A DNA stretch of 64,000 bases from Siphonodentalium dalli (Eukaryota > Mollusca > Scaphopoda > Gadilida > Siphonodentaliidae), in assembly GCA_032622095.1 (NCBI GenBank), contig CP136069.1:48336194-48400193 (forward strand), written 5' to 3'. Made by a program: the position numbers and the translations under genes. Positions 4,898 to 62,194 of this stretch are shown piece by piece; position 1 is the stretch's first letter, and every line of letters begins with the position of its first letter. The notes beneath the pieces are model-generated. The model was given only the letters and a program-made list of their open reading frames with translations, did no database searches and was not told where the DNA came from.

Positions 4898-5576
4898 GAT
4901 AATCTATCTTTGCTGAACACCGACATAAAGTCTTGATAACATCGATGATATAACACCCAAATTCACTTTCTGGTATTTTTCATTTAAATTTGAGCAGACC
5001 CATATAATTGCAACTCCTCCAATTCCAATGTTCTTATCCAGTTGCAACAACATTTCATGAGCAAACTCTACATCCCGCATCTTTCATCTTATCGTCACCA
5101 AACTTCATACGGATATTCTGTGTGACCATAGAAAGGTGCAAGGGGAATAATCCAATTGTCTATACTATACTCCAAGTTTCTCCTCAACATAATCAACAAC
5201 ATATGTGGCATACAGTGGTCATATTGTCACACGGTAACTCATCTTTATCGTACGCCGCATTTGTTACATTAGCAATGCTTATCATCCGCGCTAACACGTA
5301 TGCGAACAATATTGGAAACTTGGAGTATTTGATATGAATCAAATTATCGAAAGTCAAAAGAACATAACTGAGGAGAACATATTATGTTTTACCCATTGAT
5401 TTGCTAAATTGAGCAAGGACAAGAATCGGGAAAGTGGTCTCGTTGCTACGCCAACACGACAGCGAGCATTCCGAGCTACAGACTCAATTATATGCAGCCA
5501 TCTCATCTCTCAACTTCGCAGACACACTTCTCTATTCCTCTATCGGTATCTTGATGACCAGAGTATGATAACTTAA

Positions 5577-5933
5577 CCCTTTACCCAACAGAAGGGCCCT
5601 GTGCCAATGCATTCTCTTATATATGCGAGTCGACCATAGGTCGCCTCGCATATATAAGAGAATGCATTGGCTTAACACATATTAAAGAAAAAATGGTAAA
5701 AAGTGTTAAAAAAAAGTTTTTTTTAGGCCAATGCATTCTCTTATATATGCGAGGCGACCTATGGTCGACTCGCATATATAAGAGAATGCATTGGCACAGG
5801 GCATAACTGTAACTATCACAATGTGCTCAATGAGCCGGTTCCAATGATACCCATATTTCCATGGTTTTATTGAGACAGACCGAAGATAATTTAGGCTGTT
5901 AGGGCGTTTCTGGGCGTTCTGTTGGGTAAAGGG
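5577..5933 (+). mobile_element. piggyBac-like MITE with TTAA duplication (copy 1)
   Basis: The element begins CCCTTTACCCAACA and ends with the reverse complement TGTTGGGTAAAGGG, and lies between TTAA at 5573-5576 and TTAA at 5934-5937. Block B shows the unoccupied site with a single TTAA at 54359-54362 in the same flanking sequence, so the TTAA duplication is directly demonstrated. Inside are two near-perfect ~68-bp hairpins that are reverse complements of each other, built on arms containing GCCAATGCATTCTCTTATA. There is no transposase. TTAA targeting and CCC-start ends are typical of the piggyBac superfamily. Confidence 0.9.
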
Positions 5934-6409
5934 TTAAAGTGATGTGAAACACTCCAGCCAGGTGTTCAGAACGGTATAACAAAGACTCAAAAATGAGCTA
6001 TTTTCATAAATTTGATATCAAAATAGACAAAACACTGTTATTTTTATATACGAATTACATGCGGTGAATAGTGTTGGTGGAATCATTGCCGTAATATTAA
6101 TGTCCAATAAATCGTCCCGAATAAAGTAGAGCTTATATACATTATGCGTAGTTCAAACGGTGTGTCCTCTGAGATGGCACATTCGATGTGGTTGGAATTG
6201 TCGATAATCTTGCAATGTACATGTAGTTGATTGCGACATTCTCTCAGCGAACATAGCGTTTGGCTACTAACTGATCGGATTATTCACCGAAGTACATCCA
6301 TATCCTATGTCTTTAAATTGCAAAGTTTGCTGAAGATTTATCCATACTCTTACTTCACAACTGCATGTACATCGCCTTAAGACTAAGAGTACAACGTGTC
6401 CTAGAGCAA

Positions 6410-6735
6410 ATACTCACATAAATCGACCTATAGAGTATGCAAATTTGATTTGAAATTTTGATTTGATTATGACATACGCAGATAATGGACTCATATCCGT
6501 TATTCCGTTTTATGGCGCAGGCCAGTGAAAACACCTGATAAGTCGTGAGTTTGGTTTATTTGTGTCACTGTCCGCACATAATGAACCTATAGTGAAGTCA
6601 TAATGAGCCGACAACATGACTAAAACGCTCTCATGTTCATTTCATTGTTGACTCAAAATGCGGCGATTCTAAGCAGATTATCGACCTAAAACAAATTATA
6701 TTATAAACAAATAATGTGCGGATTTTCGGGAGAAC
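6410..6735 (+). repeat. Dispersed repeat related to 3045-3385 (second copy)
   Basis: This copy shares the ordered segments described for 3045-3385, with about 15-25 percent differences by eye. Its block B partner is 54835-55165, so it was in place before the segmental duplication. It has no coding capacity. Confidence 0.55.
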
Positions 6736-7005
6736 AAACTGAACAGTAATATTCTTAGGTTTATATATTAGTCTTCTTCAATTTAATTGTTATTTCCATA
6801 TAGATCTATCGCGTACTAAGTACATAAGTATATACATGTATATGTCAAGAATATGCCCTAACTTTATAAATATTTAACTGTATAAGGTACAGTCAGGTAT
6901 CCCACGCGGAGGAAATCTGAGATGACCAGATACTTTAACTATTCTTATCCTTGTTGTCATGACGAGTTATGCATCTATCTAGTTACGCGTGTTACTTTGT
7001 TTTAA

Positions 7006-7398
7006 CCCTTTACCCAACAAACCGGCCAAAACCGGCCAAATAAAGCTTCAACAGCCTAAAATATCTTCGGTCTGTCTCAATAGAACCATACACATATGGA
7101 TATCATTGGAACCGGCTCCTTGACCACATTGTGATAGTTACAGTTATGCCCTGTGCCAATGCATTCTCTTATATATGCGAGTCGACCATAGGTCGCCTCG
7201 CATATATAAGAGAATGCATTGGCCTAAAAAAAAAAAAAATTTAACACTTTTTACCATTTTTTTCTTACATTCTTTAACAATTTTATAATTTTTAATGTGT
7301 TAAGCCAATGCATTCTCTTATATATGCGAGGCGACCTATGGTCGACTCGCATATATAAGAGAATGCATTGGCACAGGGCCCTTCTGTTGGGTAAAGGG
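7006..7398 (-). mobile_element. piggyBac-like MITE with TTAA duplication (copy 2, opposite orientation)
   Basis: Same family as 5577-5933 but inserted the other way round: the end carrying the GGGCCCT box is on the right. TTAA lies at 7002-7005 and 7399-7402. The equivalent place in block B (55395-55398) has one TTAA and no element, with matching flanks (TTACTTTG before, ATATATATGTCC after). It contains the same pair of ~68-bp hairpins separated by a T/A-rich linker. It has no coding capacity; the open frame across its right end is a by-product of the palindromes. Confidence 0.9.
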
Positions 7399-7677
7399 TT
7401 AAATATATATGTCCACCCACAAGCATGTACATACGTTGAAGATCAGTTATGTTTGCGATCTACTACACAGTATTATGTATTTGTTCGGGTGGGTGAAATT
7501 GATAAGTTAGTACTCCGGAGCTGTGTCAACGTGGGTAATGTAGCATTCTACTAACATCGCCGAAAATTTCTAAGAAATCGACCGAAACACCGTCTGAACT
7601 ATACTCTGAATTATTAATGTTCACATCTCGACTAGGGACGCAACTATTGGCGATAAACTGTATAATTACTAGCACAA

Positions 7678-8127
7678 ATGATTGCTTCGTCGAGATGCAT
7701 TGCATTTTTATTAATATATAAGAATGACGGTGTGTGTGGTCAATTTGGATTAATAAATAACTACTTGGAACAAGATTATTCTCAATTTCTATTTGACCAA
7801 AGTGTTTCACATCGCTTTAATTGGGATTGGATATTTTGTTTCCAATACAGTAGCTTTTAATACAACATTCAAAGGCAAGTGACGTACATCGGGTGTTTCA
7901 ATATCAAAGGCCCACCACTTTGAGAATATTCAGGATTGCAGCGCCGGCATTCGGGAATGTCCTCACCACGGATTGCCTCATTTGATCTTTTTTTCTTCAG
8001 AAAATTATTAGGTTAATAATATACGAAGGGCCGATTTACGACATCCATTAAACGTGTGTGTTTTACTGTCAGTTCCCTTATCCGTTCACAAGGTCACAGG
8101 CACGTGTCACTTTCTCCAAAACAGTTG
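7678..8127 (+). pseudogene. Broken counterpart of the unrecognised open frame at 55655-56128
   Basis: The DNA matches the 157-codon open frame of block B at 55655-56128 but is interrupted here by stops and frameshifts, for example a stop at 7858-7860 and a changed frame after about 7890. The start is an arbitrary in-frame ATG. It lies immediately upstream of the peptide gene promoter at 8210. No family is recognised in the translation. It could be a former exon, a transposon scrap, or simply non-coding DNA that happens to be open in block B. Confidence 0.3.
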
Positions 8128-8209
8128 ATATATTGCGTAGTGATGAGATGAATGCATGGTCCGGTGCAATTAAAGAGGTTAGTTGAGGTCAGTCCACAAA
8201 CTGAGAGGA

Positions 8210-8217
8210 TATATAAA
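8210..8217 (+). promoter_or_regulatory. TATA box of the secreted peptide gene, copy A
   Basis: TATATAAA lies 68 bp before the ATG at 8285, which would put transcription start near 8240 and give a 5' UTR of about 45 nt. The TATA-to-ATG stretch is conserved in block B (56287-56361) with only a few base changes. Upstream, a shared GGTCCGGTGCAATTAAAGAGG-like segment at about 8158-8178 is also conserved and holds a CAAT motif. Confidence 0.7.
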
Positions 8218-8284
8218 CTCAATAATCACAGTAAAACTCCACACCAGCAGCCAACACGAAGTGAACGAGTGCCACTGAAACAAA

Positions 8285-11200
8285 ATGCAATCTGTATTTT
8301 TATTCTTACTGGTAAGTGTATTACCTCTATTACTTTAACCTTTACTATACTAAATACTCATTGACGAGTAGGTCTCTTATGCAATGTTCAGATAATAAGT
8401 TCAACAAACGACTGTTGAACTTATTATCTAATATCTAAACATTTCCCTTCAATGAATGTGAATTCTTCTGAACCTCCGTTATCTGTTCGACTGTCTGTCT
8501 GTTTGCTAATTTTCACGAACACATCTTCAAATAAATAATAGAACACTCCATGTTAATAAATTCTAACTGGGTGGCTAATCCATTTAGTATAGAGAGGGTT
8601 TATGTTGTGTGGAACACAACGCTGATGTGACTGAAAGATAATTAAGAATAAAGTACTCAAATCTCCTAAATTGTATATCTAAATTGATAGCACACAACTT
8701 GGTTCTTATGAATACATTACATGTTTGCGCAGCGACTCTAACTGGAGAAATCAATTGTTTGTTTTTCGGCGAAATTTCGTCCCGAACTGAATAGTATATG
8801 TTTACATTTGTGCGTACGATAGACGTTATGTATTCTGAAATTGTACGATCGGCATAGCTGGAATTTTCGGTAATATTAGTTTATTGCTATATATATATTT
8901 GTACAGTTGTCAAATTGCATGAATGATCCACTAAAATAAGTGCATACAATGTTTTTAAAGTTTTGACTCCGAATTAATGTTAATATTATCAGGCAAAATA
9001 AGTATGAAAAATACATGCAATCAAATTAGTCATCATTCGTATGGTATATGCAGTGCGAAGATACAAAACAACAGAGACATTTTGCAAAATCACTGTTACG
9101 GTTACGGATATGATATATTGTCCTAGTAAGGTGGGCACAATCACAACTTCCATACGGTGGTTAATTTGTGAGACAGCATACGCCCCACTATATTCAGTTA
9201 CACATTTATTTGATGGAAAAAGTAATGCGTGTCTCTTTAAGTCCCCATGTTCTCATCCTTGTGTTATACACAATACGAATGATGTCAGAGCGTCCCCAAG
9301 CAGGACCGATGGCACATCCTTGACATAATTAAGCTGCGTGGGGTATATTTCGTCTCACATAAGAACTCCCGTGCGTAAAGATAATGTTTGGTCGTATACT
9401 GGCAAGGCATTTTCCATGGATATCCGTAACCATAATTTTGCGAAAGGTCTCTGCTATCAATTAGCAATATGTAACGGAGAGCGAGCTTTATTATTTACTC
9501 CTTTTATGAAATAAAAACATGGACACTCTTTGCGATAAACAGAACTTTCAACGCCGTGGCATTTTTTTTGGGAGAGTGATTCATAGTGACCCACTCAAGT
9601 GTCTCAACACCAAAAGCTTGAGTGGCCAGAATTACAGAGCGATATGTTGTAATCAACTCTCAGTCTCCATGATTTGTAACGAGTCACATTAATCCGTTCA
9701 ACGCAAGCTCACTGAAAACACCGCAAGTTCACTGTATAACACCGCAAGTTCACCGTGAATCCTGCTCACACACATTGGGCTCGGTGGGCTCCTCCGGTGT
9801 TGAGCGCTTGATTATTGCGCACTCATTGCGTACTGAATGTTAACCACAAATACGCGACAACCAATCTAAATTGAGCCACGAAGAATAGGAATCGATATCA
9901 ATTCGTTACCACACCCCAGTAAAAGCTTCAGCTCAAAATAAATACATATATGGACTATTAGTGAACGCACGCTTTAGGTCTGAAAAAACTCACTGACGTT
10001 ACAAAATATATCGCCTCACAAGAAAACATGGATCCATTTTTAACTCAAGTCGACAATGCTATATGGGTTGGTGTCCGTGGTGCGTGCGTCCGTCAACAAG
10101 TTCCATTGGCACACCCTACAGGAATTTCGTTGAAAAAAATCGGCACACCATGCAGCCCACATTTATCGAAGTAATTCTTTGGAATATTACAGGCATGTTT
10201 AGGATCACATTGTTTAGGATCAGTTCTAGATGGGAGCTATCGAATGCGAACGGTTTTTGGTTAAATAAATGACCGCCGGCAGCCATCGTCGGTTTTACTA
10301 TTTGCATGACTAATACCTTCGGCACGCCCAACAACCACTAGTTCCCATCCAATTCGTCTAAAACAACATTCGGATGTTCATGTGACCTTCATATGAGAGC
10401 TTTCTAATTAGATAGATTGTTTTTATCGAAAAAGCAAAAATATGGCCGTTGGCAGACATCTTTGATATTCATTTTTGCAAGACTAAATCCTTTGGTACTA
10501 TGCTTATCCTTTTTATCACTAGACGAGTTATGCATCTATCTAGTTACGCGTGTCACTTTGTTTTAAATATATATGTCCATCTACAATCATATACACATGT
10601 TGAATATCAGTTATGTTTGCGATATGTATGTTTGCATCTGATTTGTCCAAAATTGCATATGAATATTCGGGGTTTCCTCTAGATGGGAATTATCATTTTT
10701 TTCCTCCGATTTCCAATTGACTATTTCTTGCGCGAGCAAACAACGTATATGTACATGAAACGTCATCGCATGTCTTTGAGAAGCCGATGTTAGTTTCACG
10801 TCACATTTGTTGATTTGAGTATGCTTTAACGAGGTTTTGGATCATGTAATAAATAGATTCTATAACTCGTCCCCAGTTTATAGCGGAATTTACAAAACTC
10901 GTCCAGAAAATTAGGTAGGGACCTTGTCAAAGGCTGGGTCAAGACCTAATTTTCTGGACGAGTTTTGTAAATTCCGCAAAAACTGAAGATTCGTTGTATA
11001 TCCTCTATGTATAATATACAACTGACATTCAAGCTGGTTGATATGCTAGTCAATGATCTAATCTGCATAACATGTTGCTATCTGAAACAAAAAAAAGTTT
11101 ACTCCGCGATTGCATTGTTAGTTCATATACATATATATTTTCAGTTGGGGCTAGGATGCCTATTATACCTCACAGCGGTGACACAGGCACGCTTCTTTGG

Positions 11201-14200
11201 CGGCGGCGGCTGGAGCGATGACTGCGACGACTGGTCCGGCTCGCGTAAGTACATTAACCCTTCTATGACTGGAGTTCCTGAAAATTTGCGAACACCCAAT
11301 GCCAATTAATTATCATATATATGTTAGTCTCCCAAAGGGAGCCTCGAATAAGAGAATGCATTGGCCTAACAATATTTACATGGACTGTGTAAGCCAGTGC
11401 TTTCTCTTATATATGCCAGTTTCCCTATGGGAGACTCGCATATATAAGAGAATGCACTGGCACATGGTCTTTAATGCTGCACCAGCGCAGCTCCCGTCGC
11501 GAACTGGTTATGTCCCCAAATACATTACTTATCGGTGTATCATTATCCTCGAATGGTTTTGACAAACGATCGCGATATTCAGGTAAGTCACATACTGGAT
11601 TTACCTTTTGTTATATTCAACTACAGTAGTTACATTTCACATTTACACTGTGTTTTGCGTTTTGTGTGAATCGCGCATCCCAGTCCGCAACCATGTTGCA
11701 CTCTTAGCAATACTGAAGCAAATTAACATATACCCAGATATAATTCGTTGTACAAGTTTTAATTTTACGCCAACTTATTTCATTTAAAAATCGCTTCTCA
11801 ATTGAATGCTAATTGACTTCCTCATCATATGCGACGATGTGTAATCACTGACATGGATATATATGCGACGATGTGTAATCACTGACATGGATATATATGC
11901 GACGATGTGTAATCACTGACATGGATATATATGTTATTTTGTCACAAACACAAACATGGTACCAATCTAGTAAGACACTATTTTTAAATCAATTTTGACA
12001 GGTATGATATTGGATTGTGCTTCTTCGATCGCATTCACAAAACCATGATACCCATATTCACAATTTGTAGATGAATGTAATTATTTCATGTACATCCACG
12101 ATGTATGTGACCAGCTGATGCCACGGGTTAGCATATAATGTAAATCTGACGCCCTTGATTTATTCATTCATGAGAATTAGGCGACATGTATATTTTTATA
12201 CAACAACATTATTTCTTCTAAAAGACACTCTATTAAATCAAAATGTAACTGAAATCTTAAGAAAATCACGCACAAAAAGTTAATATTGTAATCTAGTACA
12301 CTCACTGGTCTAAAAGTTTTGTCACTTTCATAGTGAACATAGACTGTCAACAATTACTTTAACCCTTTCTATACTAAAGCATCATTGGTAAGTGGTTATC
12401 TTATAGAATATGTTGAGATAATAAGTTTAACAAACGAGCATAGGTATACCAATGGACCATTCCGATGTACACTTTTAACTGACTGAATGTATCCATTTAT
12501 TAGATAAAGGATTAATAAGATATTTCCCGCAACACACATATATACAAGTTGTCTAGCTTTTCACTTCTGAAAAATTGTCCATGACCATCAACGAAGAAAA
12601 TTGTCCAACCAATCTGTGTTTGTATCTTATTGTATTACAACGTTAAATCTTAATACACAATTGATATGCGAGAAAAAACATTCAGTTTGGATGGGGCCTT
12701 ATCTGTAAAGACATAGTTATGAAATATTAATACATTTTTAGCTCAACTTTACAACGTAACGGCCATCTTGGAATTTACTCTTTGTATGCTTAAATCCGTT
12801 GGCACACCCTACAGAGCGCATCCATCATCTGATGATCAACAAACTTCATACTAATCTTCGGGGTGGCCTCTGGATGGGAGCCTCCTATTTTTACCGAAAT
12901 TCGTTTAAAAACACGGTGGCCAGTGGTCATCTTGGAATTTACTCTTTGTATGACTAACAATTAATCGGCACACTCTACAGACCACATTCCTCATCCGATC
13001 ACCACCAAACTTCATATGGATCTTCGGGGTGACCTCTAGATGGGAGCCTCTTATTTTGACCAAAATTCCTTGCAAACGATGGCCACCAGCCGCCATCTTG
13101 GAATTTACTCTTTTTATGACTAAATCATTTGGCGCACCCTACAAACCACATCCCTCATCCGATCATCACCATACTTGATACGGATCTTCGACGTGACCCC
13201 TAGATGGGAGCCTCCTATGTTGACAGAAATTCGTTGAAAAATATGGCCTGCCAGCGGAATTTACTCTTTACGTGGCGATATAATTTGGCGCACACTACCG
13301 ACCATATGCCTCAACCGATCTTGATCGAACTTTATATGGATATTCAGTGTGACTTCTTTATCATTATTCAGCAAAAAAAAAATCATCCCAAGTTGAAATA
13401 CAGTGGCATTGACACTTTCATTTTTAACCCTTTACCCAACAGAAGGGCCCTGTGCCAATGTATTCTCTTATATATGCGAGTCGACCATAGGTAGCCTCGC
13501 ATATATAAGAGAATGCATTGGCTTAACACATTAAAAATTATAAAATTGTTAAAGATGTAAGAAAAAATGGTAATTTTATTTTTTTATTTTAGGCCAATGC
13601 ATTCTCTTATATATGCGAGGCGACCTATGGTCGACTCGCATATATAAGAGAATGCATTGGCACAGGGCATAACTGTAACCATCACAATGTGGTCAATGAG
13701 CCGGTTCCAATGATATCCATATTTGTATGGTTCTATTGAGACAGACCGAAGATATTTTAGGCTGTTGAAGCTTTATTTGGGCGTTTTTGGCCGGTTTGTT
13801 GGGTTCATTTTACGGCTGGATAAACTGATATAGATCTTCAGCGTGACTTCTTCTTTATCATTCTTTTCATTGCTCAGCAAAAAATTTACTTCTCCCCAAG
13901 TTGAGCTACAGTGTCATTGACACTTTCATTGTTATTCTCTATTATCACAACACGTATATGTTCATTGACGCATGCACTAAGATCTTGTGACATTACCCAT
14001 CAAACAGTATGTGTAATGCCCGTTGTCGTATGGGGTCGGATTGTGAATCTCTCTCGCTAGGAAGTTACATGCATACTCCACACGAAGTCGAACATCGATT
14101 GGCATACCTTTCACATATATATGTTGAAACTATGTTTTATGAATTTGAACAATACCACTATATTCATGGTTTCTTTCTAAATTCAAATTGTATAACTGTC

Positions 14201-14758
14201 GCCTATATTCGCGCCCTGTTGCAATACGTTGTCGTATGGGGTCGGACTGTGAATCTCTCGCTCGGAAGTTAAATGTATACTCCGCACGAAGTCGAACATA
14301 GATTGGCACACCTTTCACATAATAATCGATTTATTGAAACACAATAATGCCTACCACTATCAACTATGGTATCAAATTTTCCAAAACTTGATTTTTGAGT
14401 TATCCATCTTCATCAGCAATTTTGTCCGAGACCCTCCGTTTGACGAAGTGTTTCTGGGGCACATATTATTACACATCTGGAGAAATAACAAAATTCAAAA
14501 ATTGATATCTGATCACTCTGAGCTTTGATTGGTGGGTTCCTCGACTCGAATAAGATATTTGATACCACCGCCAATGAAATAGTAATTTAGGAGCGTCTGA
14601 TAGGATTGAGTACCTTTAAGCAATGTTGGGAATATGTTTTTTGACTTAAAATTTGTATTTTTCCAGGTGAAGATAGTTGGGAGCGTGATGACTGGTATGA
14701 CGACGACTGTTATGGGCGTAGATGGGGGCGATGGGGCGGAGGACGTGGGGGTTGGTAA
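8285..14758 (+). CDS. Small secreted Gly/Trp/Asp-rich peptide, three exons, copy A
   Basis: Exons: 8285-8311, 11145-11244, 14667-14758, with stop TAA at 14756-14758. All junctions fit GT-AG: donors GTAAGT at 8312 and 11245, acceptors TTTTCAG before 11145 and TTTCCAG before 14667. Intron phases are 0 and 1. The 72-residue product starts MQSVFLFLL, has a hydrophobic core through residue ~20 and a good signal-peptidase site after TQA (24/25). The predicted mature peptide has 48 residues: RFFGGGG start, an acidic middle with WSDDCDDW and WYDDDCYG, then an Arg/Gly/Trp tail ending GGRGGW. It has 7 Trp, 12 Gly, 12 Asp/Glu, 7 Arg and exactly two Cys, which could form one disulfide. The product is probably secreted. 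Extracellular matrix, shell-matrix or antimicrobial roles are possible, but nothing in the sequence decides between them. I recognise no family. The gene structure is well supported because copy B keeps every splice site and the reading frame. Confidence 0.82.
8390..8429. repeat. 16-bp perfect hairpin in intron 1, copy A only
   Basis: AGATAATAAGTTCAAC (8390-8405) is followed after 8 bases by its exact reverse complement (8414-8429). In block B the corresponding bases are AGATAATATGTTCAAG and the right arm is missing, so the hairpin is specific to copy A. Function, if any, is unknown. Confidence 0.6.
9180..9524 (+). other. Intron-1 segment, open in block B but interrupted here
   Basis: Translation near 9210-9522 resembles a 116-codon open frame in block B (57177-57527) but has a stop around 9326. 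High DNA identity between the blocks here is explained by the duplication alone. No family is recognised, and the segment lies within intron 1 of the peptide gene. Not called as a gene. Confidence 0.25.
10063..10690 (+). repeat. Degenerate tandem repeat units, intron 1 (block A)
   Basis: About three diverged units of roughly 185-200 bp recur here. Each has a 'GCCATC/GGCAGAC' start, a 'TGACTAAATCCTTTGG-CACxC' segment, and a 'CTAGATGGGAGCT' type segment. They are related to the better conserved units at 12766-13252 and 17630-17822. Block B has the same units at 58068-58690. Confidence 0.55.
10883..10977. repeat. 34-bp-arm foldback in intron 1 (block A)
   Basis: A 34-base arm starting GCGGAATTTACAAAACTC (10883-10916) is followed after 27 bases by its perfect reverse complement (10944-10977). 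The partner in block B is 58887-58980, with one arm-end base changed. The arms would form a strong hairpin in DNA or in the pre-mRNA intron. It is probably a small foldback element. Confidence 0.8.
11258..11530 (+). mobile_element. TTAA-associated MITE of the CCCTTCTATGACTGG type, intron 2
   Basis: TTAA (11254-11257), only ten bases after the exon-2 donor, is followed by CCCTTCTATGACTGG and then by two hairpins with CATATATAAGAGAATGCA arms like those of the piggyBac-like MITEs. A more diverged relative starts at 24978 with the same opening and shares 'ATCTTTAATGCTGCACC' and a GTCCCC segment. The right end is not resolved, so the end given is approximate. Block B carries the same insertion (from 59263), so it is older than the duplication. 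Confidence 0.6.
11829..11930 (+). repeat. 34-bp unit repeated three times, intron 2 (block A)
   Basis: Three identical head-to-tail copies of a 34-bp unit beginning ATGCGACGATGTGTAATCAC. Block B has the same three copies at 59838-59939 without a visible difference. The unchanged copy number suggests recent duplication or conversion of this part of the blocks. Confidence 0.9.
12766..13252 (+). repeat. Tandem ~160-bp repeat units, intron 2 (block A)
   Basis: Three units start with CCATCTTGGAATTTACTC (near 12762, 12937, 13096), followed by a TATGACTAA segment, 'GGCxCACxCTACA', 'CTCATCCGATCATCACC', 'CGGATCTTCGG-GTGACC' and 'CTAGATGGGAGCCTC'. A partial fourth unit follows at about 13255-13350. 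The block B partner is 60771-61262. Similar single units occur at 17630 and 5070, so the unit is a dispersed genomic repeat. Confidence 0.75.
13428..13803 (+). mobile_element. piggyBac-like MITE, right end lost (copy 3)
   Basis: After TTAA at 13424-13427 the element begins CCCTTTACCCAACAGAAGG as copy 1 does and contains both hairpins. On the right it stops at GGTTTGTTGGG without the final TAAAGGG and second TTAA, and continues directly into TTCATTTTACGG. Block B lacks the element and reads CATTTTACGG through the site (about 61311). A short repeat of TTCATTTT on both sides suggests that the right end was lost in a later rearrangement. Confidence 0.75.
14018..14325 (+). repeat. Two diverged direct copies of a ~110-bp unit, intron 2
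   Basis: Units at about 14020-14125 and 14228-14325 share GTTGTCGTATGGGGTCGGA, a TGTGAATCTCTC segment, a CGAAGTCGAACAT segment and 'GATTGGCA-ACCTTTCACAT'. The open frames here are by-products of the repeat. Block B has both units at 61520-61815, the second shortened. Confidence 0.75.
14385..14616 (+). mobile_element. Truncated MITE of the TTAAAGGTACTCAATC family just before exon 3 (block A)
   Basis: The right end GGATTGAGTACCTTTAA (14600-14616) and the interior (GGTGGGTTCCTCGACTCGAA, ATAGTAATT) match the complete elements at 34702-35104 and 38330-38736. The left terminus is missing. The element ends 50 bp before exon 3 of the peptide gene, so the branch-point region of intron 2 lies just downstream of it. 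Block B has it at 61812-62054. Confidence 0.7.
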
Positions 14759-15237
14759 TCTTGATTTGTCGAACTGAACCATTGTGCAAGACATAGACAG
14801 TGCTGACGAGAATCTACGTCGAGCTTCTCTTTGGAAGGACAGTGGACGGTATGTGCCAAATGGAAGGAGCAAGTTCAACACTTTTTATGAATATATGTAA
14901 TCGGATGACGATGACTTCGATCTGGCATGCCGCGAACATCAGCTGAAATACAACACCGCATGTCAGCTCTACAGACCGGATTACAGGACTTCAGAAACAT
15001 CAGAGTGCACGTGGTAGAATCGTTCGTTACCATATTCTGGATTGGAGTCATCAACGAACCATCACATGCATGCGAAAATACTTCCTTGTAAAAATACAAA
15101 TCAGCAAGTGTGTCAATCCACCAGTAAATGTTGGTGTAAACTGTAACTATCAATCAGAACAGTTAGTTGCCTATGGCTCACAGATCGACTCTGGCTCAAC
15201 TCTCTCTCTATACATTTTCTTGTTATTTTGTGTTGGC

Positions 15238-15243
15238 AATAAA
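15238..15243 (+). terminator. Polyadenylation signal AATAAA, peptide gene copy A
   Basis: AATAAA 480 bases after the stop codon, conserved in copy B at 62674-62679. A second AATAAA lies at 15306-15311. Which is used cannot be told from sequence. The 3' UTR between stop and signal is nearly identical in the two copies. Confidence 0.55.
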
Positions 15244-16324
15244 AGTGAGTTTTCGATAGAAGTGAAATATCATTTGAATGAGTGAATATTACATTATATT
15301 ATATTAATAAAATTAATGTCACCGTTAACGTTATTTGTTCATTTTATAATTGAGCGGCTGTAATAGTTACGGCTGGATAAAACATGTCTTTTGCATAATA
15401 GGGACTGGGCTTGTGGCTGCCGTGTGGCTCCGTAAGCTCAGACCGTAACACATCTATATACGTTGCGTATGCTTTTTTTTCTTCTCCAACCCACCTGATC
15501 AACTTCCGATTAAGTTCGAATTTGGGTCCTGAACGACAATGCAATTATTCCGATATGACACCATAAAAATACTGTATGTATGTGCTCTATATTAGAATAT
15601 AATTATATCGAACCAGGTGCCAATTAATAGGTTTTGATTGTCAGATATCGACGTTAAAAAGATGACGTTTTTAATAAATTTCAAATTTGCTTCAGCTTTG
15701 CAAAATTTCCAATGCAATTCCCATGTTTGTGTTTGCCTAGTAAGTCACATGGCGGTTTACGCTAAAAAAAATACACCTAATATTCTTCGCTTTAAAATTG
15801 TTCCCGGTATATAAATAGGTCGATAAATACACATGGTGTTTGGGTTCCAAACAAAAACAGCCATGTGCACGGCTTGGAACAAAAAGAGCTTGTTGTTTTA
15901 ATCTATTCCTCATATGGTAGACATAAAGAGCGTTTGCTTCACTTTGTGCGGGGAAAAAAATAAAACAGTTGGAAAATGGACGTGACAATAATGGCAAGTA
16001 TTGTTAGAGCATATGAAGCCGGTATATCAATATTAACAGTATTTATCAACTTGTATAATACCTCCTACCAAAATGGTAATTTTTAAAGCTTGAATGAACC
16101 ATGTCCGTCTAAACACAGGCGAATTGACAAGACACCTTTAAATGAGGCATGGCTTGTCGCTTTGTATTAATATAGGCAATCAATTTGGGACTTTTTTCCA
16201 ATAATTCACACACTCGCAAATTTGCCAGGCCATTATTTTGCAGGTATTTCGGCATAGAAAGCTACAATGATCAATAAACCGAATGACAAAACAATGGTAA
16301 AACAATGCATTTTTCTCACTGTTG

Positions 16325-17629
16325 AATGTGACATATAAACTAGCATCAGCTTGCATAGCAGATAGACTGAAAAAAGTTTTACCGGTAATAATAGACCCCG
16401 ATCAAACAGGCTTCCTCTCAAATAGATTTATTGGAGACAACACCAGACTCATATACGACATTCTTCAAAAACAGAGCAAGAATCAAAACCAGGTATGCTG
16501 CTATTAATATATTTTGAAAAGGCTTTCGACCCTGTATCATGGTCATTCATACATGAGTGCCTAGATTTGTTTAATTTTGGTGAATCAATCAAGTCTTGGA
16601 TATCCATTTTCTACAATAATATATCCTCTTCAATTCTCATACACGGGCATATTTCCCAAAGTTTCAATCTATTCAGAGGCTGTCGGCAGGGTGATCCTAT
16701 TTCACCTTATATTTTTTTAATTTGTGCAGAAATTCTAGGTATCATAATGAGACAAAACACTAAAATTAAAGGAATAATCATCGGCGGTTTAGAATATAAA
16801 ATAACACAGTACGCAGAGGATACAACGCTGATCCTCGATGGCAGTCAGGAATGTCTACTATAATCTGATAGTACATTAGACAAATTCGCCTCGGTGTCAG
16901 GACTGAATATCAACCACAGTAAATGTCAGGCATCGTGGATTGGGGCTCTGAAGGGAAATACACACAACATATGCCCTGAACTACATGTACAATTCACCAA
17001 CTCCTTTACTCTATTATGGATCAAATTTAATACCAACCTTGATAAAATATTAGATAACTATGACTCAAAGCTATCTGATATTAAGACCCTGATAAAATCA
17101 TGGGGACATAGGCTATTGACTCCTTTGGGTAGAATCACGGTAATAAAATCTCTTATACTGCCAAACAAAACCCACCTATTTCAGTCTCTTCTCAACTCGA
17201 CAGCATAATTTGTTTTAAATTTAAAACGATTCTGTTTAACTTTGTTTGGGGAGGAAAACAAGACAGAGTTAAAAGAACCCAACTCTGCCAAAATTTCGAA
17301 GCAGGGAGCCTGAAAATGGTTGATGTCGAAGCTTTCAATTCATCTATGAAGATAACATGGATCAGCCGAATTATACTGAAACGGCCGAAATGGCACCCCC
17401 TTGCGGACACCCCCTATATTTACCAATAGACGAAGATCCACTCTTTCTTGCATATGGAGGCCAATACTTAAAGCTATATTCTGCCCGCATCCAGAATCAT
17501 TTCTGGAGAGATGTCATTATCGCCTGGTCTGAGCTATTGGTAGCAGAAAAAGATACCCTACCCTTATTGTCTTCAATTTTATGGAATAATGAACATTTTA
17601 AAATAAATGGTTCGACACTAAATATATAG
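16325..17629 (+). pseudogene. L1-type LINE reverse transcriptase remnant (5'-truncated, frameshifted)
   Basis: Successive frames give an RT N-terminal part (LASACIADRLKKVLP, DQTGFLSNRF), the palm (FEKAFDPVSW, GCRQGDPISPYIF) and downstream LINE segments (QLCQNFEAGSLKMVDVEAF, W-RDV-AWSELL). There are breaks near 16500, 16863 and 17205 and again after about 17280. The catalytic box reads YAED at 16810-16821 instead of YADD, so a metal-binding Asp is lost. No endonuclease part is present. The piece runs to about 17629, where a dispersed repeat unit begins. Block B holds the start of the same remnant at 63766-64000, which places this insertion before the segmental duplication. Confidence 0.88.
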
Positions 17630-17822
17630 CCGCCATCTTGGAATTTACTCTTTGCATGACTAAATCATTTGGCGCACCCTACAAACCACTTCCCTCATCC
17701 GATCATCACCATAATTGATACGGATCTTCGGCGTGACCACTAGATGGGAGCCTCATATGTTGAAAAGTATGGCATGCCAGCTGAATTTACTCTTTACGTG
17801 GCGATATAATTTGGCGCACACT
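17630..17822 (+). repeat. Single dispersed unit of the CCATCTTGGAATTTACTC repeat
   Basis: This unit closely matches the third tandem unit at 13093-13330, including the 'GGCGCACCCTACAAACCAC' and 'ACGTGGCGATATAATTTGGC' segments, so the two places share a source beyond the tandem array. Confidence 0.75.
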
Positions 17823-18410
17823 ATCCGGACAAAAGTACCCGACAAAAGTACCCGTTGAAATCCGTCTGATTTTACCCGATTTTACCTTGAATTGACCTTG
17901 AATTGACCCATTTGAAGGTCAAGGTTAGGTCGGGATTACGTTTGACCCGTCCAAAACAATCCCCGGAAATAAATACCCTTAGGTATCAAATTTCGTCAAA
18001 ATCTGTCGGGCAGTTTTCCAGGCCATAGCTAACACACACACACACATACAGGCAGAAGTCCCAACCCAAAATATATAGTAGATATATATATATATTAGCG
18101 CCCGCTCTCCAGCGGCGAAGCCGCGGAAGCGAAGCGACCTAGGGTATACGTATGCGAATATGAGATATACTAATCGACTTTTTCAGCCCACTATAAAAAT
18201 AGATTAAATAAACTTGCATTACTCAACCAGTTCCAAACAGCATGAATTGATCTAGAAGACATTTGTGAAAAAATGTTATATTTTCAACTTCCGGTGGCCA
18301 TTTTCGGTTCTGACACTACTTACGAAAACATAAGATTTAATGTCGAATTCCCTGCTAGACAGACATGATTTTTTTGTGTAAACAGTTTCCCAAAATGTCA
18401 ATTTTTCAGA
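17823..18410. repeat. Short simple repeats and a LINE/SINE-like 3' tail
   Basis: Contains short direct repeats (GACAAAAGTACCCG twice, CCTTGAATTGA twice), then a segment 'CGTCAAAATCTGTCGGGCAG' leading to a CA run and 'AAATATATAGTAGATA'. A related ending (AAAATATATAGTAGATA) closes 51241-51335, so this looks like the shared 3' tail of a retroposed family. The remainder to 18410 is unremarkable. Confidence 0.4.
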
Positions 18411-18914: not shown

Positions 18915-19362
18915 GAAAATTTTGGACCCAACATTTATATTGCCAATACTATACACTAAAACGTTAGCACTGAGGCCTATGGAAAACATTTACACCAGTG
19001 TAACCTAAAAGCCTCCCTGCACCCGATGTTACCAGGATTCCCACTCAATCAATCAGTGTAAGAATGACATTGTGTGTAAGGCATGCAAACAACTGGGGCA
19101 CAAGGCGTCGGATTACCGTTGTCCACTCAACAAACCTAACCAGCGAACTGATCGTAGTTATTACGGTAGCTGTGAGGACCTCTCATCGTTCGGACAACAC
19201 AATGCTGAGCAATCGTCGGATAAGGTCAAAGTCGACCTTGTATCACCTACTCAAGCCACCGAGCCGAACAACGGTAAAAGATCGAAGTTCACCCGTGCAA
19301 TGACGGAAATACACCAATTGACACGCTGATTGTGGGCGCTAGCAATATGCGTCAGTTACCCT

Positions 19363-41342: not shown

Positions 41343-42590
41343 TTAACCTGGAGAACAGGTAGCTAGGGAAATTTGAATATCTTTGATCATTTTGCACGTT
41401 TTCTTTAGAACAGATGGTCGTGTGCTCCTTAAAAGCATTTTCAATTGACCAAGACTGTATGTACTTTTCGAAAAGACAGGAAATAATGATTCCCTCAAAT
41501 CGGAGAAGATTGGGCAATCAATCAGGTAGTGTATTTCGTCGCCGATTGCATTCCGATTACACAAGGTACATACACGCTGCTCTCTCGGAACATTGTTCCA
41601 ACTTCCCGATTCTACTGGCAGTTTATGATTTCTGGTTCTGAATCGAGCCAAAGTGAATACGTTATTCTGATTACTAGAATTTAGGTAGTTTTCGAAAGTG
41701 AATTCTGTCTTAACCAAGGAATAAAACATGCCCTTTCTGGAAAGTGATATATCGATTTGCCACCCGTGTATAAACTGATCTTTTAAAATGTTTGTGACAT
41801 CCTTGAGAATGCACATCGTGTTGATGAGTGAATATTTGTTCGCCCAAACATCAGACACCCCGCAACAATCAATTATTCCTTTAACTGCGTAAATCCACGG
41901 TGAAAATAATATCCCATTTGTGTAATGATTATACAGCAATGTGCACGTGTAGAGCGATTTTGAAATTTTGCCATGTGTATTTGTGACAAGCGAAACCCAG
42001 AATTTTAGCAATCTATTATTGAATGTAACTTCTATGGGTATGTACCTGTTTCGCCATAAACCATATATGTTGGAGTTGACTTTTTGAGGTTTAGAATAAT
42101 CTTACAAAACTTTAAATGTACTCGTTCAATAGAACTTATGTCACCAAGCCCCCATATCTCACAGCCGTATGTAAGTATTGGTACCACCATTTGATCAAAC
42201 AACGTGAACATGCATTTAATAGAGAGGTTATTCCGTTTTCCGATCTTAATAAAATCATATATCGCTTTGGTGGCTTTGTTACAAGTGTATTGTTTCATAG
42301 CTTTGAAAGAACCTGTTCTACCGAAATTAATACCAAGGTAGTTAAAAGCATCGACATATTGTAGTTGGTTTCCAAGGAGATTTATTGCTGGGTAATGTTT
42401 TGGCTTTCGTTTTGCGAAACAGACTAACTTTGTTTTTGAGATGTTTACCCGAAGGTGCCAAATATTACAATAGTCAGCAAATAAATCAAGTGAATATTGC
42501 AGTGCATGTGGGGATTCTGCCATTAGAACCGTATCATCCGCATAAAGCATGATAAACAGCTTCACATATATTTCCAATGTTTCAAGTTCG
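41343..42590 (-). pseudogene. CR1-like LINE fragment: RT C-terminal half and zinc tail
   Basis: Minus strand: catalytic YADD at 42533-42544 (LYADDTVLMAESPHALQY), then DYCNIWHLRVNISKTKLVCF, YLGINFGRTGSF and PILTYGCEIWGLGD, down to about 42032. A frame change follows, then a C-terminal part with FTLARFRTRNHKLPVESGSW and a C-x2-C-x9-H-x4-C motif (CTLC...HYLIDC, about 41514-41570). The N-terminal palm with the first catalytic Asp is missing on this strand, so it is 5'-truncated. It meets a second, oppositely oriented fragment at about 42590. Confidence 0.9.
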
Positions 42591-56361: not shown

Positions 56362-59300
56362 ATGCAATCTGTATTTTTATTCTTAATGGTAAGTGTATTG
56401 CCGCTATTACTTAACCTTTGTTATACTAAATACTCATTGACGAGTAGTTCTCTTAGGAAATGTTCAGATAATATGTTCAAGAAACCTCCATTAATTTTCG
56501 ACTGTCTATCTTCTGCTCATTTTCATCAACACGTCTTCAAATAAATAATAGCACACTCCATGTTAATACATTCTAACTGGGTGGGTTAATCCATTTAGTA
56601 TAGAGAGGGTTTATGTTGTGTGGAACACAACGCTGAGGTGACTGAAAGATAATTAAGAATAAAGTACTCAAATCTCCTAAATTGTATATCTAAATTGATA
56701 GCAACTTGGTTCTTAGGAACACATTACATGTTTGCGCAGCGAATCTAACTGGAGAAATCAATTGTTTGTTTTTCGGCGAAATTTCGTCCCGAACTGAATA
56801 GTATATGTTTACATTTGTGCGTACGACAGACGTTATGTACATGTATTCTGAAATTGTACGATCGGCATAGCTGGAATTTTCGGTAATATTAGTTGATTGC
56901 TATATATATTTGTGCAGTGGTCAAATTGCATGAATGATCCACTGAAATAAATGCATACATTGTTTTTAAAGATTTTGACTCCGAATTAATGTTAATATTA
57001 TCAGGCAAAATAAATATGAAAAATACATGCAATCAAATTAGTCATCATTCGTATGGTATAGGCAGTGCGAAGATACAAAACAACAGAGACATTTTGCAAA
57101 ATCACTGTTACGTTTACGGATATGATATATTGTCCTAGTAAGGTGGGCACAATCACAACTTCCATACGGTGGTTAATTGGTGAGACAGCATACTCCCCAC
57201 TATATTCAGTTACACATATATTTGATGGAAAAAAGTAATGCGTGTCTCTTTCAGTCCCCATGTTCTAATCCGTGTGTTATACACCACACGAATAATGTTA
57301 GAGCGTCCCCAAGCAGGACCAGTGGCACATCCTCGACATATTTAAACTGCGTGGGGTATATTTCGTCTCACATAAGAACTCCCGTGCGTAAAGATAATGT
57401 TTGGTCGTATACTGGCAAGGTATTTTCCATGGATATCCGTAACCATAATTTTGCGAAAGGTCTCTGCTATCAATTAGCAATATGTAACGGAGGGCGAGCT
57501 TTATTATTTACTCCTTTTATGAAATAAAAACATGGACACTCTTTGCGATAAACAGAACTTTCAACGCCGTGGCATTTTTTTTAGGAGAGTGATTCATGGT
57601 GACCCACTGAAGTGTCTCAACACCAAAAGCTTGAGTGGCCAGAATTACAGAGTGATTTGTTGTAATCAACTCTCAGTCTCCATGATTTGTAACGAGTCAT
57701 ATTAATCCGTTCCACGCAAGTTCACTGTATAACACCGCAAGTTCACCGTATAACACCGCAAGTTCACCGTGAATCCTGCTCACACACATTGGGCTCCCCC
57801 GGTGTTGAGCGCTTGCTTATTGCGCACTCATTGCGTACTGTATGTTAACCACAAATACGCGACAACCAATCTAAATTGAGCCACGAAAAATAGGAATCGA
57901 TATAAATTCGTTGCCACACCCCAGTAAAAACTTCAGCTCAAAACAAATACATATATGGATTATTAGTGAACGCACTATTTAGGTCTGAACAAACTCACTG
58001 ACGTTACAAAATTTATCGCCTCACAAGAAAACATGGATCCATTTTTAACTCAAGTCGACAATGCTATATGGGTTGGTGTCCGTGGTGTGTGCGTCCGACA
58101 ATAAGTTCCATTGGCACACCCTACAGGAATTTCGTTGAAAAAAATCGGCACACCATGCAGCCCACATTTATCGAAGCAATTCTTTGGAATATTACAGGCA
58201 TGTTTAGGATCACATTGTTTAGGATCAGTTCTAGATGGGAGCTAGTGAATGCGAACGGTTTTCGGTTAAATAAATGACCGCCGGCAGCCATGGTCGGTTT
58301 TACTATTTGCATGACTAATACCTTCGGCACGCCCAACAACCACTAGTTCCCATCCAATTGGTCTAAAACAACATTCGGATGTTCATGTGACCTTCATATG
58401 AGAGCTTTCTAATTAGATAGATTTTTTTATCGAAAAAGCAAAAATATGGCCGTTGGCAGACATCTTTGATATTCATTTTTGCAAGACTAAATCCTTTGGT
58501 ACTATGCTTATCCTTTTTATCACTGGACGAGTTATGCATCTATCTAGTTACGCGTGTCACTTTGTTTTAAATATATATGTCCATCTACAATCATATACAC
58601 ATGTTGAATATCAGTTATGTTTGCGATATGTATGTTTGCATCTGATTTGTCCAAAATTGCATATGAATATTCGGGGTTTCCTCTAGATGGGAATTATCAT
58701 TTTTTTCCTCCGATTTCCAATTGACTATTTCTTGCGCGAGCAAACAACGTATATGTACATGAAACGTCATCGCATGTCTTTGAGAAGCCGATGTTAGTTT
58801 CACGTCACATTTGTTGATTTGAGTATGCTTTAACGAGGTTTTGGATCATGTAATAAATAGATTCTATAACTCGTCCCCAGTTTATAGCGGAATTTACAAA
58901 ACTCGTCCAGAAAATTAGGTATGGATCTTGTCAAAGACTGGGTCAAGACCTAATTTTCTGGACGAGTTTTGTAAATTCCACAAAAACTGAAGATTCGTTG
59001 TATATCCTCTATGTATAATATACAACTGTCATTCAAGCTGGTTGATATGCTAGTCAATGATCTAATCTGCATAACATGTTGCTATCTGAAGAACAAAAAA
59101 AGTTTACTCCGCGATTGCATTGTTAGTTCATATACATATATATTTTCAGTTGGGGCTAGGATGCCTATTATACCTCACAGCGGTGACACAGGCACGCTTC
59201 TTTGGCGGCGGCGGCTGGAGCGATGACTGCGACGACTGGTCCGGCTCGCGTAAGTACATTAACCCTTCTATGACTGGAGTTCCAGAAAATTTGCGAACAC

Positions 59301-62194
59301 CCAATGCCAATTAATTCTCATATATATGTTAGTCTCCCAAAGGGAGCCTCGAATATATAAGAGAATGCATTGGCCTAACAATATTTACATGGACTGTGTA
59401 AGCCAGTGCTTTCTCTTATATATGCCAGTTTCCCTATGGGAGACTCGCATATATAAGAGAATGCACTGGTACATGGTCTTTAATGCTGCACCAGCGCAGC
59501 TCCCGTCGCGAACTGGTTATGTCCCCAAATACATTACTTATCGGTGTATCATTATCCTCGAATGGTTTTGACAAACGATCGCGATATTCAGGTAAGTCAC
59601 ATACTTGATTTACCTTTTGTTATATTCAACTACAGTAGTTACATTTCACATTTACACTGTGTTTTGCGTTTTGTGTGAATCGCGCATCCCAGTCCGCAAC
59701 CATGTTGCACTCTTAGCAATACTGAAGCAAATTAACATATACCCAGATCTAATTCGTTGTACAAGTTTTAATTTTACGCCAACTTATTTCATTTAAAAAT
59801 CGCTTCTCAATTGAATGCTAATTGACTTCCTCATCATATGCGACGATGTGTAATCACTGACATGGATATATATGCGACGATGTGTAATCACTGACATGGA
59901 TATATATGCGACGATGTGTAATCACTGACATGGATATATATGTTATTTTGTCACAAACACAAACATGGTACCAATCTAGTAAGACACTATTTTTAAATCA
60001 ATTTTGACAGGTATGATATTGGATTGTGGTTCTTCGATCGCATTCACAAAACCATGATACCCTTATTCACAATTTGTAGATGAATGTAATTATTTCATGT
60101 ACATCCACGATGTATGTGACCAGCTGATGCCACGGATTAGCATATAATGTAAATCTGACGCCCTTGATTTATTCATTCATGAGAATTAGGCGACATGTAT
60201 ATTTTTTTACAACAACATTATTTCTTCTAAAAGACACTCAATTAAATCAAAATGTAACTGAAATCATAAGAAAATCACGCACAACAAGTTAATATTGTAA
60301 TCTAGTACACTCACTGGTCTAAAAGTTTTGTCACTTTCATAGTGAACATAGACTGTCAACAATTACTTTAACCCTTTCTATACTAAAGCATCATTGGTAA
60401 GTGGTTATCTTATAGAATATGTTGAGATAATAAGTTTAACAAACGAGCATAGGTATACCAATGGACCATTCCGATGTACACTTTTAACTGACTGAATGTA
60501 TCCATGTATTAGATAAAGGATTAATAAGATATTTCCCGCAACACACATATATACAAGTTGTCTAGCTTTTCACTTCTGAAAAATTGTCCATGACCATCAA
60601 CGAAGAAAATTGTCCAACCAATCTGTGTTTGCATCTTATTGTATTACAACGTTAAATCTTAATACACAATTGATATGCGAGAAAAAACATTCAGTGTGGA
60701 TGGGGCCTTATCTGTAAAGATATAGTTATGAAATATTAATACATTTTTAGCTCAACTTTACAACTTAACGGCCATCTTGGAATTTACTCTTTGTATGCTT
60801 AAATCCTTTGGCACACCCTACAGAGCGCATCCATCATCTGATGATCAACAAACTTCATACTAATCTTCGGGGTGGCCTCTGGATGGGAGCCTCCTATTTT
60901 TACCGAAATTCTTTTAAAAACACGGTCGCCAGTGGTCATCTTGGAATTTACTCTTTGTATGACTAACAATTAATTGGCACACTCTATATACCACATTCCT
61001 CATCCGATCACCACCAAACTTCATAAGGATCTTCGGGGTGACCTCTAGATGGGAGCCTCTTATTTTGACCAAAATTCATTGCAAACGATGGCCACCAGCC
61101 GCCATCTTGGAATTTACTCTTTTTATGACTAAATCATTTGGCGCACCCTACAAACCACATCCCTCATCCGATCATCACCATACTTGATACGGATCTTCGG
61201 TGTGACCCCTAGATGGGAGCCTCCTATGTTGACAGAAATTCGTTGAAAAATATGGCCTGCCAGCACAAAAAAAACTCATCCCAAGTTGAAATACAGTGTC
61301 ATTGACACTTTCATTTTACGGCTGGATAAACTGATATAGATCTTCAGCGTGACTTCTTCTTTATCATTCTTTTCATTGCTCAGCAAAAAATTTACTTCTC
61401 CCCAAGTCGAGCTACAGTGTCATTGACACTTTCATTGTTATTCTCTATTATCACAACACGTATATGTTCATAGACGCATGCACTAAGATCTTGTGACATT
61501 ACACATCAAACAGTATGTGTAATGCCCGTTGTCGTATGGGGTCGGATTGTGAATCTCTCTCGCTAGGAAGTTACATGCATACTCCACACGAAGTCGAACA
61601 TCGATTGGCATACCTTTCACATATATATGTTGAAAGTATGTTTTATGAATTTGAACAATACCACTATATTCATGGTTTCTTTCTAAATTCAAATTGGATA
61701 ACTGTTGCCTATATTCGCGCCCTGTTGCAATGCGTTGTCGTATGGGGTCGGACTGTGAATCTATCGCTCGGAAGTTAAATGTATACTCCGCACGAAGTCG
61801 AACATCGATTGGCACACCAAAACTTGATGTTTGAGTTATACATCTTCATCAGCAATTTTGTCCGAGACCCTCCGTTTGACCACGTGTTTCTGGGGCACAT
61901 ATTATTACACATCTGGAGAAATAACAAACTTCAAAAATTGATATCTGATCACTCTGAGCTTTGATGGGTGGGTTCCTCGACTCGAATAAAATATCTGATA
62001 CCACCGCCAAAGAAATAGTAATTTAGGAGCGTCTGATAGGATTGAGTACCTTTAAGCAATGTTGGGAATATGTTTTTTGACTTAAAATTTGTATTTTTCC
62101 AGGTGAAGATAGTTGGGAGCGTGATGACTGGTATGACGACGACTGTTACGGGCGTAGATGGGGGCGATGGGGCGGAGGACGTGGGGGTTGGTAA
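56362..62194 (+). CDS. Small secreted Gly/Trp/Asp-rich peptide, three exons, copy B
   Basis: Exons: 56362-56388, 59150-59249, 62103-62194, with stop TAA at 62192-62194. All GT-AG signals are the same as in copy A (GTAAGT at 56389 and 59250; CAG before 59150 and 62103). Exon 2 is identical to copy A. Exon 1 changes codon 9 from CTG to ATG (Leu to Met, within the signal peptide, so still hydrophobic). Exon 3 has one silent change, TAT to TAC. The mature 48-residue peptide is therefore the same as from copy A. Two intact genes with identical mature products suggest dosage or expression differences rather than new function. The family is not recognised. Intron 2 again contains a truncated MITE ending 49 bp before exon 3. 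Confidence 0.82.
57177..57527 (+). other. 116-codon open frame within intron 1 of copy B, unrecognised
   Basis: Protein-like words occur (CLFQSPCSNPCVIHHTNN, NHNFAKGLCYQLAICNGG), but the counterpart in block A (9180-9524) has a stop near the middle. It lies in the intron on the sense strand. No family, signal or splice support. Confidence 0.2.
58068..58690 (+). repeat. Degenerate tandem repeat units, intron 1 (block B)
   Basis: Partner of 10063-10690, nearly identical, with only scattered substitutions (for example near 58103-58107 and 58184). Confidence 0.55.
58887..58980. repeat. 34-bp-arm foldback in intron 1 (block B)
   Basis: Partner of 10883-10977. The last base of the right arm is changed (ATTCCA for ATTCCG), and the loop differs at a few bases. 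Confidence 0.8.
59263..59535 (+). mobile_element. TTAA-associated MITE in intron 2 (block B)
   Basis: Partner of 11258-11530, with TTAA at 59259-59262. It keeps 'GAATATATAAGAGAATGCA' where copy A has lost six bases, so copy B shows the more complete hairpin. Right boundary approximate. Confidence 0.6.
59838..59939 (+). repeat. 34-bp unit repeated three times, intron 2 (block B)
   Basis: Partner of 11829-11930, with the same three units and no visible change. Confidence 0.9.
60771..61262 (+). repeat. Tandem ~160-bp repeat units, intron 2 (block B)
   Basis: Partner of 12766-13252, with three units. The partial fourth unit of block A is missing here: after GGCCTGCCAGC the sequence goes straight to an A run and CATCCCAAGTTGAAATACAG-like text. 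Confidence 0.75.
61520..61815 (+). repeat. Two diverged direct copies of a ~110-bp unit, intron 2 (block B)
   Basis: Partner of 14018-14325. The second unit stops after GATTGGCACACC, where about 70 bases present in block A are missing. Confidence 0.7.
61812..62054 (+). mobile_element. Truncated MITE, TTAAAGGTACTCAATC family (block B)
   Basis: Partner of 14385-14616. The right end GGATTGAGTACCTTTAA is intact, the left terminus missing. Confidence 0.7.

Follow-up and report, generated by a model that had tools for sequence, protein, structure and literature searches.

Bipartite antimicrobial peptides of Hydra (arminin, periculin and HyCWR) are small, have a signal peptide and halves of opposite charge, and are encoded by clustered paralogues restricted to one lineage; the HyCWR peptides are rich in Cys and Trp, have a positively charged C-terminus and lack a conventional cleavage site (PMC10945409, in its passages on these peptides). 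Here we report on a gene with a product of comparable layout in the scaphopod Siphonodentalium dalli. It lies on the forward strand of a stretch of 64,000 nucleotides (the window; positions 48,336,194 to 48,400,193 of contig CP136069.1, assembly GCA_032622095.1), consists of three tiny, widely spaced exons and is called copy A in the following. An earlier note had read it by eye from the raw sequence. We find that the gene is very probably real and that it belongs to a family of at least six complete genes.

The likeness to the Hydra peptides is one of described layout. A signal peptide followed by a bipartite mature peptide is present and the paralogues are clustered, but the complex cysteine pattern is lacking, as there are only two Cys, and we therefore do not file the family with the Hydra-type antimicrobial peptides. 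The Asp-Trp/Tyr repeats and the Gly-Arg tail also set it apart from them.

A second comparison is with mussel fp-3, which is strongly basic and Dopa-rich and has neither an acidic block nor Cys. Compared by description, copy A does not group with it, having a calculated isoelectric point (pI) of about 4.1, 10 Asp and 2 Cys. What the two have in common is that both are very small secreted peptides. According to the parts of PMC4275877 that deal with it, fp-3 is small, contains glycines and hydroxyarginine and sits at the substrate interface, and a zwitterionic variant of it self-coacervates; sandcastle-worm cement granules, in the same source, contain polyanions and polycations.

Molluscs offer further candidates. 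Shell matrix proteins of the aspein, shematrin and KRMP types are secreted, of low complexity and acidic or Gly-rich, and we know of no shell matrix peptide of 48-71 residues with two fixed Cys in which an Asp/Trp block is combined with an Arg/Gly tail. The chiton tooth protein RTMP1 resembles copy A in its signal sequence, its Gly-richness, a Trp/Phe-rich part and in having had no known relatives when described (PMC6351634, in the sections describing the protein). With 539 residues, Gly/Ser repeats and a His-rich region, as given there, it differs from copy A, which has 72 residues and no His in the mature part, and a reading of copy A as an RTMP1-type protein was set aside.

A family of genes with three short exons

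Only 219 bases of copy A are coding (27 + 100 + 92, stop included). They encode 72 residues, of which 24 form the predicted signal peptide, cut after TQA-24, and 48 the mature part. The leader reaches a 10-residue hydropathy maximum of 2.8 and has T and A at positions -3 and -1 before Arg25, and it therefore fits a signal peptide by the usual -3/-1 rule. Both introns start with GTAAGT; the acceptors read ...TTTTCAG and ...TTTTCCAG, and the introns end in ...TATATTTTCAG before exon 2 and ...TTTTTCCAG before exon 3. The exon coordinates, GT-AG junctions and reading frame given in the earlier note are exactly those we obtain, and recounting returned its figures for coding bases, product and mature part as well as for composition (7 Trp, 12 Gly, 12 acidic residues, 7 Arg and two Cys); the two W-x-D-D-(D)-C motifs it named are WSDDC and WYDDDC. 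The note's account of copy A is supported: it looks like a genuine spliced gene whose product would be secreted, is rich in Trp, Gly and Asp and has its charges segregated, and on the comparisons below we regard gene and family as almost certainly real.

The label "copy A" was apt: further copies, B and C, exist, and the family is larger than the note could see. The genome comprises 2.23 Gb in nine contigs, of which C9 holds the window. When the genome was searched at the DNA level with the copy A exon-3 stretch, three places with 99-100% identity were listed, and the three copies were aligned from 200 kb fetched around the window. Relative to A, B carries L9M and a single synonymous change, and C carries Q23H, an additional Gly (3 bases) and likewise a single synonymous change; the Tyr codon after the second Cys is TAT in A and TAC in B and C. 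All four splice-site stretches are identical in the three copies and the frame is kept. The 3' region of A (14759-15260) is 98.4-98.6% identical with those of B and C. As the introns are also 96-98% identical, the copies are young and alone say little about constraint. They lie in a segmental triplication (4898-18046 versus 53171-65463 and 92635-104166, in window coordinates). Identity within the duplication rises from 88-91% in the upstream flank to 96-98% in the gene body and downstream, with a sharp boundary at the promoter, and this shift suggests that the gene bodies were homogenised by gene conversion.

More telling are the diverged relatives. Their first sign was a local tblastn match to exon 3 at C9:48307806 (E = 1e-8). 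A protein search of the genome with copy A listed ten places, of which six are exons 2 and 3 of copies A-C and the other four are diverged exon 2s. With a diverged exon 2 as query seven places were listed (the same four and the exon 2s of A-C), and with an E-type exon 3 eight, six of which are diverged exon 3s (Table 1). The other two are weak matches on C4 (E = 0.36 and 9.45) within long open frames, and we regard them as probable chance matches. These lists are not exhaustive: the copy A query missed the exon 3s of the E genes and the E-type exon-3 query missed those of A-C.

All on the + strand, three of the diverged exon 2s are followed after 3.6-4.1 kb by a diverged exon 3, and the one at 200.64 Mb after 3.0 kb. 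The 246-base promoter and exon-1 stretch upstream of the first of these exon 2s was used for a DNA search, which listed three places, one before each of the three. There are thus three complete genes, E1-E3, with 95, 92 and 92 residues, about 87-143 kb upstream of copy A. They share an identical exon 1 (MRTSVALLL, with nine codons as in A) and an identical exon 2, and they match A in their three exons, in the length of exon 1 and in where the introns lie; their TATA promoter is homologous to that of A. The pair at 200.64 Mb, 152 Mb from the window on the same contig, belongs to a more diverged paralogue, F, for which exons 2 and 3 were found and no exon 1 was recognised in the about 8.3 kb searched upstream. 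The exon 3s at C9:48284326 and 48307806 share the same early stop. For neither was an exon 2 found among the matches listed, nor was there one in the 11.6 kb before 48307806; they are probably remnants left by birth-and-death evolution. Six complete genes (A, B, C and E1-E3) thus lie within about 240 kb of C9. All six follow one plan: a TATA box, a nine-codon exon 1, an exon 2 which closes the signal peptide and brings the first Cys, and exon 3, which supplies the rest. We read this as a tandemly duplicated family of genes for small secreted peptides that is probably confined to one lineage. The exons of each gene are short enough to escape ordinary searches for open reading frames (ORFs), and the family could be missing from gene sets.

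The diverged copies allow coding constraint to be judged. For exon 2 the nonsynonymous (dN) and synonymous (dS) substitutions per site are 0.23 and 0.91 between A and E, 0.38 and 2.0 between A and F, and 0.23 and 1.02 between E and F. For exon 3 of A and the remnant at 48307806, the proportions of nonsynonymous (pN) and synonymous (pS) differences are 0.22 and 0.77. In all four comparisons pS exceeds pN (Fisher p = 0.005, 0.0006, 0.005 and 0.0001, on rounded counts and for comparisons which share sequences and are not independent). The exon 2 alignments score 50 for A and E3 (shuffled maximum 18) and 28 for A and F (maximum 22), while the roughly 490 bases on each side align no better than shuffles in either pair. 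A blastn comparison of the copy A gene region with 30 kb containing the exon 3 at 48307806 matched only repeats elsewhere. Intron divergence was thus sampled around exon 2 (A versus E3 and F) and around exon 3 (A versus one orphan). The diverged exon 2s keep their AG and GTAAGT ends, and exon length differences within A-C and within E1-E3 are multiples of three. The exons thus appear to be kept in frame with their splice ends while the sampled introns diverge, as in a protein-coding family, and, judged by these substitution patterns, the coding sequence is under purifying selection.

Whether copy A itself is still properly used is a separate question. The alignment shows 77 gap columns in the promoter between A and B, 74 between A and C and only three between B and C, and the block in which A is 96.7% identical to C begins at 8205. 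In B, the about 100 bases upstream of the TATA box hold spaced blocks in common with E1-E3 (TTGATG.AG, CCTTC or GTCCTT, TTGA, ATGAG and TATATAA). Because these proximal promoter bases are missing, copy A may be the least expressed copy. One could go further and suppose that it is no longer properly expressed and that B, C and E1-E3 do the work of a real family: the bases directly preceding the TATA box are kept in B and C, partly alike in E1-E3 and gone from A. We find this rather doubtful, as the TATA box, 5' untranslated region (UTR), coding region, splice sites and 3' UTR of copy A are intact and 93-100% identical to those of B and C.

Table 1. Exons, promoter elements and related places of the gene family (window coordinates unless preceded by C9)
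Feature	Position	Strand	Description and basis
Copy A, promoter junction	8204..8205	+	74-77 bp of proximal promoter missing; present in C and B, partly alike in E1-E3
Copy A, TATA box	8210..8216	+	TATATAA; 68 bases before ATG; aligned with the box in B, C and E1-E3
Copy A, exon 1 (coding part)	8285..8311	+	MQSVFLFLL, phase-0 end; 1 difference in B, 0 in C; translation
Copy A, exon 2	11145..11244	+	LGLGCLLYLTAVTQA/RFFGGGGWSDDCDDWSGS + 1 nt; remainder of signal peptide, N-terminus, first Cys
Copy A, exon 3 (coding part with stop TAA)	14667..14758	+	acidic W/Y-Asp block, second Cys, Arg/Gly/Trp tail
Copy A, probable 3' UTR	14759..15243	+	AATAAA at 15238-15243; sequence read
Copy B, exon 1	56362..56388	+	MQSVFLFLM; alignment
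Copy B, exon 2	59150..59249	+	identical to A; alignment, genome search
Copy B, exon 3	62103..62194	+	one synonymous change versus A; alignment, genome search
Copy C	95837-102273		beyond the window, about 40 kb downstream of B; alignment
Diverged exon 2s	C9:48204739, 48223715, 48253035, 200636805		E = 3e-4 to 1.4e-3 (query A)
Diverged exon 3s	C9:48208459, 48227431, 48257245, 48284326, 48307806, 200639873		search with E-type exon 3, eight places listed

Layout of the mature peptide

The predicted peptides of A-C, E1-E3 and F share one build. The signal peptide ends in T-E/Q/H-A (its start was not seen in F) and the mature N-terminus is aromatic and Gly-rich (RFFGGGGW, RYWGG or QRWFGFG). Then follow DDCDDW/F, acidic W/Y repeats (WERDDWYDDD, RYDDDWYDDDWYDDDDDD and RWERDDDDWYDDDWYDDDD), C-Y and an Arg/Gly tail which ends in GGW, GYF or GWF, thus always with an aromatic residue. 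Asp occurs in runs of 2-6 among Trp and Tyr. In the Asp block of E and F, WY pairs stand five residues apart (WYDDDWYDDD); A has one such pair. Behind the second Cys the sequence reads CYGRR in A-C, CYYGRGG in E1-E3 and CYYRR in F.

Charge is segregated, as the earlier note described for copy A. In that copy the net charge is -9 up to the second Cys and +4 in the tail. The corresponding values are -18 in E1-E3 and F for the acidic part, and +9 (E1), +8 (E2), +8 (E3) and +9 (F) for the tails. Counting copy A, the tails have 15-36 residues and include W, F or Y. Mature lengths range from 48 to 71 residues (48, 49, 68 and 71), and over this range the split of about 2:1 acid to base in net charge is kept. 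Taken whole, the mature peptide carries -5 to -10 net, and its calculated pI is about 4.0-4.1 for A-C, E1 and F.

The note had known no named family with this layout, and within Pfam, PDB sequences and PMC text, which define the scope of that statement here, neither do we. Pfam gave no matches for A and F and one meaningless match for E1 (E = 6.1). Among PDB sequences the best match to A had E = 0.5, and E1 had none at E <= 1. Four peptide motifs, including DDWYDDD, which occurs in A, E and F, were absent from PMC full text. Elsewhere, members of the family may be present as predicted proteins without a name. Bipartite secreted peptides are known as a kind; this family, with its Asp-Trp/Tyr block and Arg/Gly tail, belongs to that kind and matched no family in the libraries searched.

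What the peptide might do

We suggest that the peptide is a self-associating extracellular polyampholyte. We give this reading, which is drawn from the layout of the peptide, a probability of roughly 0.4 and slightly prefer it over an antimicrobial precursor. The mature peptide would be mostly disordered, and one disulfide (or cross-link) would tie it around the acidic loop. The Asp blocks could bind Ca2+, another metal or mineral, and could pair with the Arg/Gly-aromatic tails of neighbouring molecules through charge and cation-pi contacts. The secreted peptides would then condense into a matrix, glue, mucus or a tooth or cuticle layer. We prefer this reading because a single peptide, acidic overall and lacking any conserved cleavage site, bears both charges, and because the Asp block with its aromatics is well preserved and the charge split persists in subfamilies that differ in length. 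The acidic pI of about 4 (A-C, E1 and F) would also fit a matrix role better than direct membrane killing.

In its most specific form, which we consider unlikely, one molecule would be a complete coacervate peptide: a Cys-closed polyanion of Asp with spaced Trp/Tyr and a Gly-Arg polycation with an aromatic end would self-condense at a net charge of about 2:1, and selection would act on the ratio more than on the sequence. If self-association is true, the family offers a compact encoded zwitterionic peptide with natural variants of 48, 49, 68 and 71 residues, in which charge ratio and aromatic spacing could be related to condensation.

Several points weigh against a self-associating polyampholyte. 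The fp-3 family is basic and Dopa-rich, unlike the peptides described here. Only three subfamilies underlie the 2:1 ratio, and slippage can lengthen low-complexity Asp/Gly/Arg tracts. Exon 3 varies no less than its flanks do when the young E copies are compared (identity of 96.9-98.1% versus 98.5-100% in the preceding intron and 96.6-99.3% after it), although such variability is as expected for a slippage-prone Gly/Arg tail. Finally, antimicrobial peptides of Hydra also form tandem families with bipartite charge (PMC10945409, in the passages on these peptides).

The last point leads to the strongest alternative, namely that the peptide is an antimicrobial precursor in which the acidic, Cys-bracketed pro-region masks a cationic Arg/Gly/Trp tail that is released, or becomes active once the acid is neutralised. 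We hold this to be possible, if tentative. As far as the Hydra source covers them, its peptides share with the family the signal peptide, a mostly bipartite charge and clustered paralogues, and the HyCWR set matches in its positive C-terminus and the lack of a conventional cleavage site (PMC10945409). The length, charge (+4 to +9) and aromatic content of the tails would suit such a role, as would the near-identical tandem copies, and by eye the tails vary more between subfamilies than the acidic block. However, a processing site is not conserved: RR follows the second Cys in A-C and F, but only one R stands there in E1-E3. Overall, the mature peptide is net negative and has only two Cys, and the acidic block is kept better than a mere mask would need. 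Should the defence reading be true, the libraries searched lack this family of bipartite peptides.

Also unlikely is a mineral- or metal-binding matrix peptide, located in shell, sclerite or radular tooth, whose function would depend on the Asp block alone, with the tail as an anchor to chitin or another matrix. The Asp runs among Trp/Tyr and the acidic pI speak for it, but the searches of Pfam and PDB sequences returned no matrix family, and the chiton tooth protein RTMP1 is of another kind in its size, its Gly/Ser-rich build and its WF- and His-rich regions (PMC6351634, as described in the sections cited above).

A neuropeptide or hormone precursor cut at Arg pairs is very improbable and was set aside: in A-C the GRR directly after CY resembles an amidation and cleavage site (CYG-RR), but E1-E3 have GRGG there, and F lacks the Gly (YYRR), so that no dibasic or amidation site is conserved; nor is any active peptide repeated. 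That the exons are no gene at all, and only chance or hitch-hiking open frames in a repeat or mobile element, we consider scarcely credible, for although A, B and C sit in duplicated segments and the window has reverse-transcriptase fragments and palindromic repeats, exon 2 has stayed conserved from A to E and to F within flanks that align no better than shuffles, exon-3 peptides match at E = 1e-8 where DNA comparison finds only repeats elsewhere, length differences are multiples of three, pS exceeds pN, and the exons listed lie on one contig in ordered sets, bar the two weak C4 matches.

Surroundings in the window and the genome

Palindromic repeats resembling miniature inverted-repeat transposable elements, with CCAATGCATTCTCTTATATATGCGAG or close forms, occur at window positions 11340-11460 and 13460-13660 and also upstream of the F gene. 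Fragments resembling long interspersed nuclear elements lie at 16426-16860, 19009-19326 and 42035-42808. Ten window ORFs were scanned against Pfam: two contain RVT_1 (16426-16860 and 42035-42808), one a zinc knuckle, and the remaining seven gave no family at E <= 0.01. Rfam yielded nothing at gathering score within the window. A tandem array of a 121-base unit occupies 50225-51186, with about eight copies and 84% matches.

Some marker domains were also searched for in the genome, and their match counts are lower bounds. Hemerythrin was not among the matches listed, in a search whose scoring controls were prokaryotes, and neither was the hemocyanin beta-sandwich, for which no control scored. 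Tyrosinase-type exons number at least six, one of them with hemocyanin entries, including KLH, as its nearest PDB matches. Together with the globins these exons mark the genome as that of an animal, and taken alone the markers would allow a chiton or another lophotrochozoan. There are at least 23 globin exons genome-wide, with clusters at C1:38.1-38.5 Mb (at least eight) and C6:104.2-105.0 Mb (at least four); the closest PDB entry to one of them is the myoglobin 1dm1, which we take to be that of Aplysia. C1q, which is greatly expanded in bivalves, speaks weakly against a bivalve, as it gave at least ten matches genome-wide.

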